From Undibacterium hunanense (GTDB lineage Bacteria > Pseudomonadota > Gammaproteobacteria > Burkholderiales > Burkholderiaceae_D), in the NCBI RefSeq assembly GCF_014284335.1, contig NZ_JACOGF010000005.1, forward strand, positions 124,001 to 188,000: a stretch of 64,000 nt of DNA, given 5' to 3'. Both the position numbers and the translations under genes were made by a program. This document shows, one piece after another, positions 33,359 through 41,148 of this stretch. A model generated the notes under the pieces. It was not told the DNA's origin. It searched no databases and saw only the letters and a program-made list of their open reading frames with translations. How positions within the stretch are numbered: position 1 is the first letter of the stretch; each line of letters starts with the position of its first letter.

Positions 33359-33475
33359 ATGTCGTCACACATGAAAAAAGAAACTGCTGTGGCCATGCGT
33401 GAACTCGTATTTCAGATCACCGGAACGACGCGCGCAATTTTTTTAAATCAGCATGGCAGGACGGTAAATGCTTGA
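33359..33475 (+). CDS. Candidate 38-residue leader peptide
   Basis: An ATG at 33359 is preceded by GGAGAGG eleven bases upstream and opens a 38-codon frame (starting MSSHMKKETAVAMRELVF) whose TGA at 33473 overlaps the ATG of the intramembrane protease gene (33468). The geometry suggests translational coupling. There is no hydrophobic segment or recognisable domain. It could be chance; conservation in relatives would decide. Confidence 0.35.
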   Translation: MSSHMKKETAVAMRELVFQITGTTRAIFLNQHGRTVNA

Positions 33476-33854
33476 ACAGGCGAATGTGATTTTTCCTTTT
33501 TTTGTTCAGCATGCGATGTGCGGAAATCAAATGCGTGCGCCTGATGTGGGCGTGTTGTTGCGGCTGCTGTTGCTGGCGCCGGTATTGGAAGAGCTAGTGG
33601 TGCGTGCTGGTCTGCAGCAGTACCTGACAGGGCAGTTCCGGCAATCTGGTGTCAATGCGACCTGGTTACCGGTAGTGATATCAGCGACGGTGTTCAGCGC
33701 ACTGCATGTGGCAGCAGGCTGGACGATGGTGGCAGCGATTTTTGTGCCCGGCCTGTTGCTGGCGATGCTGTACCAGTGGACGCGTGACTGGCGGCTGTGC
33801 GCGTTAATGCATGCCGTCTTCAATGGAATGGCTCTTGGTGTTTGCATGCAGTGA
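33468..33854 (+). CDS. CPBP glutamic intramembrane protease, probable JDVT-CTERM sorting enzyme (MrtJ type)
   Basis: This 128-residue membrane protein carries all three CPBP (Abi/Rce1-like) motifs: EExxxR in LEELVVRAG (Glu41, Glu42, Arg46), FxxxH in FSALH (Phe76, His80), and HxxxN in HAVFN (His115, Asn119). It is much shorter than usual CPBP proteases. The next gene, 26 bases downstream, encodes a protein with a Gly4-Cys, hydrophobic helix, Arg-rich tail, the design of the JDVT-CTERM sorting signal, whose known companion is the short MrtJ protease. I infer that this enzyme cleaves near that tail to release or anchor the surface protein. Confidence 0.82.
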   Translation: MLEQANVIFPFFVQHAMCGNQMRAPDVGVLLRLLLLAPVLEELVVRAGLQQYLTGQFRQSGVNATWLPVVISATVFSALHVAAGWTMVAAIFVPGLLLAMLYQWTRDWRLCALMHAVFNGMALGVCMQ

Positions 33855-33880
33855 CCTATTTTAATCATTGAAGGGAAACT

Positions 33881-38278: not shown

Positions 38279-40156
38279 ATGAAACATAATTTTTTCTATA
38301 AATGGTTTTCCGCATTGTTGCTCTTGCTGATGTGTGGTTTTTCACAGCATGCAGCGGCAGCAGACGACTTCCTGGATCCGGAACAGGCCTTCAAGTTGCA
38401 AGCTGAATTGCGCGACGCGAAAACCCTGGTGCTGTCCTGGACGATTGCCAAGGATTACCACCTCTACCGCGAGCGTCTGAGCTTCAATGCAACGGAACCG
38501 GGCATCACTTTGGGTGCGCCTAAACTACCGGATGGCATACGCAAATTTGATACGACCTTCAATAAGGAAGTAGAGACCTATGCAGACCGTCTGCTGGTGG
38601 AATTGCCCATCACCAAAGCTGACAAGGTGTTTACGCTGAAGGTGGGTTATCAGGGTTGTGCCGATGCTGGTCTCTGTTATCCACCGGCAGAACAACACTA
38701 TCGTGTTGATACTTCTACACCCGGAAAATTGACACTTCAAGCGGTAGATGCGACAACAGCAGTATCGACGACGCCAGCAGTGGCGGCCACTGCTACTGCC
38801 ACTGCGCCAGCCGCCAGCGAATCTGCTCACAAGGAAGATGACAGCTCGTTGGCCCAGCGCACGCTGCAAAGTGGCAGCCTGTGGCGCATAGGCATGGCAT
38901 TCCTGGTATTTGGCTTACTGCTGTCATTTACGCCTTGTGTCTTGCCCATGGTGCCGATCTTGTCATCGATTATTGTGGGTGAGGGTAATGTCTCGCGTGG
39001 CCGTGGTTTCATGCTGGCGCTGGCGTATTGTCTGGGTATGGCCCTGGTGTACACCTTGCTGGGTGTGGCTGCCGGTCTGGCTGGTGAAGGCCTGGCGGGG
39101 GCATTGCAAAAGCCCTGGGTATTGCTGACCTTTGGAGCTTTGCTGATTGGTCTGGCGTTGTCCATGTTTGATGTCTATCAATTGCAATTGCCTGGCGGTC
39201 TGCAAAGCCGGCTGAGTCAGGCCAGTGGCAACTTCAGCGGTGGCAAGTTCCTTGGTGTGTTTGTGATGGGCGCACTGTCTGCGTTGATCGTTGGCCCATG
39301 CGTGGCGGGGCCACTGGCTGGTGCCTTGCTGTACATCAGCCAGACCCGCAATGTATTGATCGGTGCCTGGGCGCTGTTTTCCATGGCGGTAGGTATGAGC
39401 GTGCCATTGTTGTTGACAGGTATCTCTGCCGGCAGCCTGTTGCCACGCGCAGGTGCCTGGATGAATCAGGTCAAGAAACTGTTTGGTCTGTTGTTGATTG
39501 CTGTTGCCATCTGGATGGTCAGCCCGGTGTTTCCGGTCAAGGTCATGATGGCGGTATGGGGTGGCTTTGCGATTTTGTGTGCCGTGTTTTTGCATGTGTT
39601 TGATGCATTGCCAGCCGGTGCAGGCTTGCGTGCCTATGTGGCAAAGGCACTGGGGATCAGTTTTCTGTTCCTGGGTTTGTTTGAACTCATCGGTGCCGCC
39701 AGCGATGGCAAGGATGTATTGCAGCCTTTGGCCCATTTGCGCGGTACAGCGAATGCTGCACAAATGGCCGACGCGGGTTCAGCGGGAAACCATGCGGAAA
39801 ATAAATTTACCCGCATCAAAAGCGTCGCCGAACTGGATGCTGCTCTGGCTGCGACCAACACACCTGTGATACTGGATTTTTATGCTGACTGGTGTGTGTC
39901 CTGCAAAGAGATGGAACGTTTCACTTTCTCCGAACCCAAGGTCAGCGAACAACTGAAGCAGGTACGCCTGCTGCAAGTGGACGTAACCGCCAACAGCGAT
40001 ATGGAAAAAGCATTGATGAAACGTTTTTCATTGTTTGGCCCGCCAGGCATCATCCTGTTTGACCGCAGCGGCAAGGAAGTGCCGGACAGCCGCATCATTG
40101 GCTACCTGGAACCTGAACGTTTCGTACAACATTTGTCACGCCATTTTGCGCTGTAA
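38279..40156 (+). CDS. dsbD: Thiol:disulfide interchange protein DsbD
   Basis: This 625-residue protein carries electrons from cytosolic thioredoxin to periplasmic thiol proteins. It has a signal peptide, the alpha domain with [14 protein letters not shown] (residues about 30-150), a linker rich in Ala/Thr, eight membrane helices with the cysteines of TPCVLPM and [11 protein letters not shown], and a C-terminal thioredoxin domain with [10 protein letters not shown] (Cys539, Cys542). The position after TlpA/DUF4266/DUF3570 and directly before trxB (26 bases) puts the entire NADPH to periplasm reducing route in one stretch. Confidence 0.95.
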
Positions 40157-40182
40157 AATCAACTCATTCCAGATTGCCTAGT

Positions 40183-41148
40183 ATGACCAATACTCCCGTA
40201 CCCGCATCCACACCCAAACACGCACATGTATTAATTCTTGGCTCTGGCCCCGCAGGCTATTCTGCTGCCGTGTATGCAGCCCGTGCCAACCTGAAACCCG
40301 TGCTGATCACCGGTGTCGAGCAAGGTGGCCAACTGATGACTACCACTGATGTCGAAAACTGGCCCGCCGACCCTATGGGCGTGCAAGGGCCGGAATTGAT
40401 GCAGCGCTTCCTGCAACATGCAGAGCGCTTCAATACCGAAATCATTTTTGATTACATCCACACCGCCAAACTGGATGAAAAACCGATACGCCTGATCGGC
40501 GACCAGGCGCAATACACCTGTGATTCACTGATCATCGCCACCGGCGCATCGGCCCAATACCTGGGCCTGCCGTCTGAACAGGCCTTCATGGGCAAAGGCG
40601 TGTCTGCCTGTGCTACCTGTGATGGCTTCTTTTATCGCGGCAAGGAAGTGGCCGTCGTTGGTGGCGGCAATACAGCGGTTGAAGAAGCGCTGTACCTGTC
40701 GAATATCGCCAGCAAGGTGACAGTGATCCATAGGCGTGACAAGTTCCGTGCCGAAGCGATTCTGATCGATCGTCTCATGGCCAAGGTGGCTGAAGGCAAG
40801 ATTGAAGTCAAATGGAACCATACGCTGGATGAAGTGGTGGGTGATGAATCCGGCGTGACCGGCATCAAGGTCAAGGCAGCCGACGGTACAGTTACCCCCA
40901 TCACCCTGCACGGTGTGTTCATCGCGATTGGTCACAAGCCGAATACCAGCATTTTTGAAGGGCAGCTGGAAATGCATAACGGCTACATCAAGACACGTAC
41001 CGGTACCGAAGGCATGGCAACGGCCACCAATGTACCAGGCGTGTTTGCTGCCGGTGACGTGCAGGACCATGTGTATCGCCAGGCCATCACCAGCGCAGGC
41101 ACAGGTTGCATGGCTGCGCTGGATGCACAGCGCTTTTTGGAAACTTAG
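40183..41148 (+). CDS. trxB: Thioredoxin reductase
   Basis: This 321-residue FAD enzyme uses NADPH to reduce thioredoxin. It has the N-terminal FAD fold [20 protein letters not shown], the redox-active pair in [18 protein letters not shown] motif [16 protein letters not shown], and the C-terminal [21 protein letters not shown] chose the ATG at 40183; an in-frame TTG upstream is less likely. Its TAG stop overlaps the left end of a small repeat element. The dsbD-trxB adjacency suggests a functional couple. Confidence 0.96.

Follow-up and report, generated by a model that had tools for sequence, protein, structure and literature searches.

Why does a protein-sorting gene pair stand at the head of a set of genes for periplasmic thiol and flavin chemistry? 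The question is raised by a locus of Undibacterium hunanense, within a stretch of 64,000 nucleotides (contig NZ_JACOGF010000005.1, positions 124,001 to 188,000; the window), where seven genes on the + strand at 33468-41148 encode the protease MrtJ, a cytochrome/immunoglobulin-like (Ig)/JDVT-CTERM protein, TlpA, DUF4266, DUF3570, DsbD and TrxB. All seven had been named in an earlier note on this DNA and all were recovered on that strand, with families matched by NCBIfam and Pfam models against curated cut-offs. The answer favoured here, held with about even confidence, is that the locus forms one redox operon controlled by an extracytoplasmic function (ECF) sigma factor, in which DsbD, TlpA, DUF4266 and a flavin-carrying DUF3570 would build a chain and the MrtJ-sorted cytochrome would be its terminal partner. 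Gene content and order, the joint presence of MrtJ and JDVT, frames that fuse JDVT with TlpA, a promoter motif, a barrel model and flavin motifs are the direct observations in support of this reading. The operon comprises the following features:

33468..33854, +: MrtJ, a short CPBP glutamic intramembrane protease of the myxosortase family (NF033192, 85.3 bits, cut-off 75)
33881..36070, +: c-type cytochrome domain with a single haem, followed by five Ig-like repeats (choice-of-anchor D) and a JDVT-CTERM tail (NF033191, NF012200)
36076..36099, +: G+C-rich hairpin in the gap from JDVT to TlpA, perhaps an attenuator (fold z -2.81)
36128..36649, +: TlpA/ResA-like periplasmic thioredoxin with WCGPC (NCBIfam/Pfam matches)
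36646..36897, +: small exported DUF4266 protein, likely a lipoprotein, with the tail GGGGCGCN (PF14086, 84.3 bits, cut-off 27)
36913..38124, +: DUF3570, outer-membrane barrel (16 strands in the model), two SGAS motifs (PF12094, 224.5 bits, cut-off 25)
38279..40156, +: DsbD, transmembrane thiol electron carrier (NF001419, 581.1 bits, cut-off 330)
40174..41148, +: TrxB, near-identical to the housekeeping thioredoxin reductase (TIGR01292, 385.9 bits, cut-off 343.45)

The first two genes constitute the MrtJ/JDVT-CTERM pair that had been proposed, since both products exceed their curated cut-offs, the tail reaching 58.2 bits against 27 for NF033191. The three protease motifs and the Gly4-Cys693 element are present as described: MrtJ carries EELVVR, FSALH and HAVFN, and the general forms EExxxR, [FS]xxxH and HxxxN occur in 55/55 loci with a MrtJ found, the window and a genome of another family (G264) included. 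In a 27-row alignment of the haem protein, C693, D701, P702, W717 and R718 are invariant, and the tail combines the invariant cysteine with a transmembrane helix and an arginine tail, as expected of a target of this pair. The window genome contains one MrtJ and one JDVT tail above the cut-offs, adjacent to each other, and a weaker second CPBP match (at C32 of this genome) stays under the MrtJ cut-off. Among the 144 DUF3570 loci that have 4 kb or more of upstream sequence (19 shorter ones were left out, and overlap of the sets means that the genomes are not independent), MrtJ and the JDVT tail were jointly present in 83, jointly absent in 61 and split in none. In Duganella sacchari (L146) both are gone from the locus, while the rest of the operon is kept, as are its promoter motif and the divergently placed ECF set. 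Only the start of the protease had to be moved: the ATG at 33359, from which it had been read, opens a frame of 38 amino acids in another frame, and the true start is 33468. The small frame (33359-33475) overlaps the start of MrtJ and is a possible leader or coupling element.

As far as the available part of the published account goes, MrtJ/JDVT-CTERM is a two-gene neighbourhood, sorting has been studied for MrtX/TraA, and lipidation and the type II secretion step belong to the model of that paper (PMC11980579). The pair of the window resembles the published one in its scores above both cut-offs, in its single copies per genome and in its adjacency; it differs in heading a redox operon, as it does in 59/65 genomes of the family, and in a tag that can be internal. 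MrtJ would cleave the haem protein, which would then be displayed at the surface. Among JDVT proteins outside the module, two (L235, L240) contain CXXCH and three (L217, L236, L247) presumably resemble soluble sugar dehydrogenases; JDVT targets may often be redox proteins.

That the pair and the redox genes belong together, as the earlier note had supposed, is indicated by their conserved order, a common promoter motif and JDVT-TlpA fusions. In the window's family, the JDVT protein occurs in 65/392 genomes, once in each (surroundings were fetched for 60, four came from short loci, and the window itself was added), and JDVT, TlpA, DUF4266 and DUF3570 follow in this order in 59 of the 65, a grouping far beyond chance. 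Among the 55 of these 59 operons with enough flank, MrtJ was found in 54, DsbD in 55, ApbE in 47 and CXXCH in 55, and the full order from MrtJ through cytochrome/JDVT, TlpA, DUF4266 and DUF3570 to DsbD lies on a single strand in 54; in L212 the 6.1-kb contig is too short for MrtJ to be found. A DUF3570 scan of named genomes, overlapping with the family set, yielded 60 loci and includes Massilia, Duganella, Janthinobacterium and Undibacterium with the same order, which was also seen in Rhizobacter or unclassified metagenome-assembled genomes. In a sample of 399 genomes of the order, MrtJ exceeds its cut-off in 16, JDVT is found in 21 at E 0.001 (16 over the cut-off) and DUF4266 in 44, at 51 places. 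Five of these genomes have both JDVT and DUF4266: the window genome (G000), G016, G264 and G323, over both cut-offs, and G152, where JDVT is under its cut-off. The two genes are neighbours in two of the five, the window genome and G264; the association recurs outside the family, in G264 in a rearranged form. Viral contigs scanned with DUF4266 contained no relative, a result without bearing on the grouping.

The closest form of association is a fusion. In 12/59 family operons and also in G264, a single open frame runs through JDVT and TlpA without an intervening stop, and all 13 fused frames keep the Gly-rich cysteine motif, the DP, the helix and the WRRR. In the two fusions scanned with NCBIfam models (L147, 7003-9681; L057, 7584-10364), an internal JDVT-CTERM match is followed by ResA/DsbE-like matches. 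Mapped onto the DUF3570 tree, in which G264 has a long branch, the fused state requires three changes and is best read as gains in Oxalobacteraceae and in G264 and a loss in L146. Start-like codons in the linker make internal initiation of TlpA possible, though the JDVT frame would still have to read into TlpA. In the fusion clade (Duganella, Janthinobacterium, Undibacterium rivi), the product would be a single polyprotein, which myxosortase and signal peptidase would cleave apart. A sorting tag in the middle of a protein has a counterpart in MXAN_5598, whose MYXO-CTERM tag is internal according to the accessible sections of that account (PMC11980579); the latter, however, joins an adhesin with an outer-membrane barrel and OmpA domains, whereas the fusions described here join a cytochrome with a thioredoxin.

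These observations bear on the view that the two halves are mere neighbours by descent, with unrelated jobs for MrtJ/JDVT and for the redox module. Each half is indeed also found without the other. Nevertheless, this view is very improbable and already disfavoured, as it is opposed by the fusion frames with their apparently two origins, by the recurrence of the association outside the family and, rearranged, in G264, by the retention of the promoter motif in two loci where MrtJ and JDVT were lost (L146, L106), and by the 14 of 43 unfused operons in which the first possible start of TlpA overlaps the stop of JDVT by four bases.

The redox half corresponds to a system described in 2021, in which ApbE, DUF3570, DUF4266, a thioredoxin-like protein and DsbD occur together (eLife, PMC8238504). 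There, the DUF3570 protein of Chlorobium luteolum was flavinylated by its own ApbE in E. coli, and the thioredoxin-like member was counted by PF13899, to judge from the part of the article at hand (PMC8238504). The window operon shares the two [ST]GA[ST] motifs of DUF3570, the CXC tail of DUF4266, a thioredoxin fold, DsbD and close linkage. In contrast, it has no ApbE of its own and adds a sorted cytochrome/Ig protein, a protease, an ECF set and TrxB; the sections available mention neither a cytochrome nor a sorting enzyme (PMC8238504).

In DUF3570 of the window, SGAS motifs occupy residues 107-110 and 118-121, and both [ST]GA[ST] motifs are found in 59/59 family proteins, including those of the 8/55 operons without ApbE. 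An AlphaFold model (mean predicted local distance difference test score, pLDDT, 84.8) shows 16 strands and agrees with barrels of solved structure; an even strand number and a fold match in the predicted structure thus support the outer-membrane barrel that had been suggested. A sequence search of solved structures gave no match for DUF3570, and the fold comparison returned common barrels with no nearest functional relative. Both flavin motifs lie in the strand 3-4 loop on the long-loop side of the model, in a poorly modelled block (mean pLDDT 54). This rim comprises 162 residues, against 82 and 91 in other classes, and holds 35 of the 50 positions conserved to at least 90%. According to the usual outer-membrane topology it would be the outer side, and the flavin motifs are therefore predicted to face outside. 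Besides, DUF3570 matches in 13 loci (L061-L065, L067, L068, L075, L112, L114-L117) lie in frames of about 700-1000 amino acids, roughly twice the usual size.

DUF4266 had been called a lipoprotein with a cysteine tail. The C-terminal CXC tail is identical in 59/59 family operons, whereas a simple lipobox pattern finds no match in the window protein and matches 30/59 relatives, which leaves a lipoprotein likely but not established. The tail GGGGCGCN (gene at 36646-36897) is similar to the motif GGGGC[ST] of the JDVT protein (33881-36070).

From these parts a route can be proposed. Reduced nicotinamide adenine dinucleotide phosphate (NADPH), TrxB and thioredoxin would feed DsbD from the cytoplasm, DsbD would hand electrons to periplasmic TlpA, and TlpA would pass them by way of the DUF4266 cysteine tail to flavin mononucleotide (FMN) on the DUF3570 barrel. 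MrtJ would cut the JDVT tail behind Cys693, probably after lipidation, and the cytochrome would thereby be anchored at the outer membrane or the cell surface beside the barrel; in fused lineages, MrtJ and signal peptidase would separate cytochrome and TlpA. Route and direction of the electrons are predicted from the gene families, and the arrangement suggests that the cell may pass electrons to a surface-placed haem protein. A more specific version, which is possible but tentative, takes the whole as a trans-envelope thiol/flavin conduit, in which the Gly-rich cysteine tail of DUF4266 would enter the lumen of DUF3570 and reduce FMN in the outward loop, the sorted cytochrome would serve an outside acceptor, and the fusion clade would make cytochrome and TlpA as a polyprotein. 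Porin-cytochrome conduits such as MtrCAB likewise place a barrel and a haem protein at the outer membrane. The likeness is one of analogy only, as the locus has one haem together with thiol and flavin carriers instead of a multi-haem wire.

A barrel with a surface haem protein would also be compatible with a module that reduces metal (iron or copper) at or beyond the outer membrane for uptake or detoxification, the cytochrome being the reductase or a binding stalk. In the published set, as far as it is accessible, 25 DUF3570 clusters carry the VIT1 ferrous iron transporter (PMC8238504). Such a role is distinctly unlikely for the window, where no metal transporter or regulator is among the genes identified in the conserved locus, a statement that does not extend to the neighbours of the relatives, which were not searched.

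The proposed chain depends on what the haem protein and TlpA are. The haem domain, which had been recognised as c-type, carries CTACH, and C60, C63, H64 and M96 are invariant in all 27 rows of the alignment, so that a mono-haem c-type cytochrome is supported, with M96 as probable distal ligand; the Pfam model Cytochrome_CBB3, however, reaches 23.8 of the required 27. The Ig-like part consists of five choice-of-anchor-D stretches and shows five invariant cysteine pairs in the same alignment. TlpA has a ResA/TlpA-like thioredoxin fold (Redoxin, 82.8 bits, cut-off 26.6) and passes PF08534, PF00578, PF13905 and PF00085; it lies under the cut-offs of PF13899 (12 of 27 bits), ResA (97.2 of 170) and DsbE (73.5 of 123.15), the latter two being the curated thresholds for ResA/CcmG-type apocytochrome reductases.

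Cytochromes also accompany the module beyond the JDVT loci. In the order sample, a gene with a haem motif and a signal stretch, as the test required, lies immediately 5' of TlpA (or DUF4266) at 15/51 DUF4266 loci, compared with 3/345 other genes there; the pass of L079 is doubtful because its frame overlaps that of TlpA. Among 26 DUF3570 loci of named genomes without a JDVT tail, three pass the haem-motif test (L143, L195 and, doubtfully, L174, whose haem motif is far from the signal peptide). The N-terminal haem domain of these partners is constant and the C-terminus variable: a JDVT tail in the window and G264, DUF5648 in L060 and L105, FG-GAP repeats in L076 and no Pfam name in L104 and L106. 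Thus, the JDVT tail seems to be one of several ways to place the module cytochrome. The partners of L104 (31.7 bits) and L098 (33.5 bits) exceed the Pfam cytochrome c cut-off, and those of L060, L105 and L195 show CX4CH instead of CX2CH.

The main rival of the redox chain is that TlpA and DsbD mature the haem protein, either by CcmG/ResA-like reduction of CXXCH or as an isomerase system for the cysteine pairs, the flavin barrel being a separate or downstream branch. DsbD or its kin are the usual electron donors of ResA and DsbE proteins. The best NCBIfam matches of TlpA are the ResA and DsbE models, an invariant CXXCH and five invariant cysteine pairs offer substrates, and a JDVT-TlpA fusion would bring enzyme and client together. 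Still, maturation is unlikely, as TlpA remains under both curated cut-offs, DUF4266, DUF3570 and ApbE are left unexplained, and TlpA-DUF4266-DUF3570-ApbE clusters without a recognised upstream cytochrome are common, as in the second cluster of the window genome and at most of the 51 DUF4266 loci.

The proposed control by an ECF sigma factor concerns the region upstream of the operon, where the features are:

33298..33326, +: promoter motif of ECF type before the operon, GAACC-N16-GCATTAAC (pattern match)
32992..33020, -: second copy of the motif, facing the divergent ECF sigma gene (pattern match)
32366..32968, -: ECF sigma factor, divergent neighbour (Pfam sigma-70 r2/r4)
31674..32456, -: zf-HC2 anti-sigma factor (domain match)
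30340..31677, -: S8 subtilase of the divergent set (domain match)
29596..30339, -: putative porin of Gcw_chp/TorF type, likewise in the divergent set (domain match)

The motif GAACC-N16-[GC][TC]AT[TA][GA]AC lies about 140 nt before MrtJ and about 24 nt before the sigma gene. With the SYATTRAC pattern and one mismatch allowed, the window contains two matches, both exact, and 15/100 shuffles have at least two. Genes for ECF and anti-sigma factors are divergent beside 26/55 family operons, accompanied by S8 and Gcw_chp genes where the flank reaches. The operon-strand motif is found in 28/28 loci with an ECF gene (the 26 plus L146 and L106), compared with 0/28 strict and 18/28 loose matches in loci without one (L212 was excluded, being a short contig); as the pattern was read off these same, related loci, the numbers describe rather than test it. 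A sigma-70 scan of 32300-41400 found one weak site, located on the opposite strand, where shuffled sequences gave 6.9 on average, a scarcity consistent with the ECF-type reading. ECF control of the operon is probable rather than certain. In the divergent set (30340-32456, -), the anti-sigma protein has an HxxxCxxC zinc-finger motif and the adjoining S8 subtilase a Cys-rich tail (CACSC); that the subtilase cuts the anti-sigma factor is a guess. Downstream of the operon, 41318-44196 presumably encodes a GntR-type regulator, an AraC-type regulator and a hydroxyproline-epimerase-like protein.

TrxB, which the earlier note had counted as part of the system, was dropped as a defining component. It is seen in 22/55 family operons, a lower bound as some contigs end early, and in the window clade it is near-identical to the housekeeping copy: window TrxB and G000:C43 agree in 308/309 aligned residues, with 97.1% DNA identity over 936 bases. 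Near-identical copies also occur in three genomes of the same genus, G639, G668 and G684 (98.7-99.4%), less so in G775 (94.2%). A distinct operon TrxB, 72-76% identical to the other copy, is present in G707, G763, G766 and G770, and G490 of the window's genus likewise has a distinct one. A tree of 24 rows puts the two copies of the same genome side by side in four genomes of the window's genus, a pattern like that of concerted evolution or of duplication that happened repeatedly. Of the 29 TrxB copies fetched, seven (six being operon copies) dropped out owing to an unfit start motif, so that the tree does not settle the number of TrxB gains. The TrxB of the window (40174-41148) and that of L257 (5721-6665) are near-identical proteins with about 3% DNA change.

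Several findings weigh against one ECF-controlled operon with a sorted cytochrome at its end. All 59 operons come from a single family and share descent. Six of the 65 JDVT genomes (L217, L235, L236, L240, L241, L247) lack the module and carry MrtJ behind JDVT, and of 17 MrtJ loci from other parts of the order (on short contigs in some cases), G264 is the only one with the module. The upstream-cytochrome test is failed by 36/51 DUF4266 loci (L060 and L098 look like filter misses), and thus the cytochrome is not essential to the module. Genome-wide, at spacings of 15-17, the promoter motif has six matches, as many as the reversed control, so that the pattern alone is not rare; the weight rests on two of the six pointing away from each other out of a single intergenic region. 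On the side of the sigma gene, a copy occurs in 6/28 loci by the strict pattern and 7/28 by the loose one, and five of the six strict copies are those of the window and its near kin. The hairpin at 36076-36099, matched in folding by 2/200 shuffles, separates JDVT from TlpA and may lower downstream expression; such terminator-like hairpins occur there in 5/43 unfused operons of the family, each time in the window's genus. Finally, ApbE is absent from the window operon, as had been stated, but the genome has two copies elsewhere, and each of seven other genomes without an operon ApbE has at least two elsewhere. The operon without ApbE is restricted to few lineages, and DUF3570 is there probably flavinylated in trans. 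One of the two copies of the window genome sits in a second TlpA-DUF4266-DUF3570-ApbE cluster (L055, 3764-6880; G000:C32), whose DUF3570 shows one SGAS motif.

Most parts of the locus are published, and what may be new is their union. The claim that the grouping had no description holds for this union only, which was not found in the papers searched (supplementary tables were outside its scope), whereas the redox set (PMC8238504) and the MrtJ/JDVT pair (PMC11980579) are each described in the accessible parts of those papers. In these parts, sorting is the one role given for the pair, and the DsbD/DUF3570 system is of uncertain function with no known terminal partner. The locus offers a testable answer for both, namely that the sorted haem protein belongs to the redox chain. 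Moreover, the natural JDVT-TlpA fusions provide a ready substrate to show myxosortase cleavage within a polyprotein, and the ECF-type promoter motif opens a way to find the signal that induces the operon.

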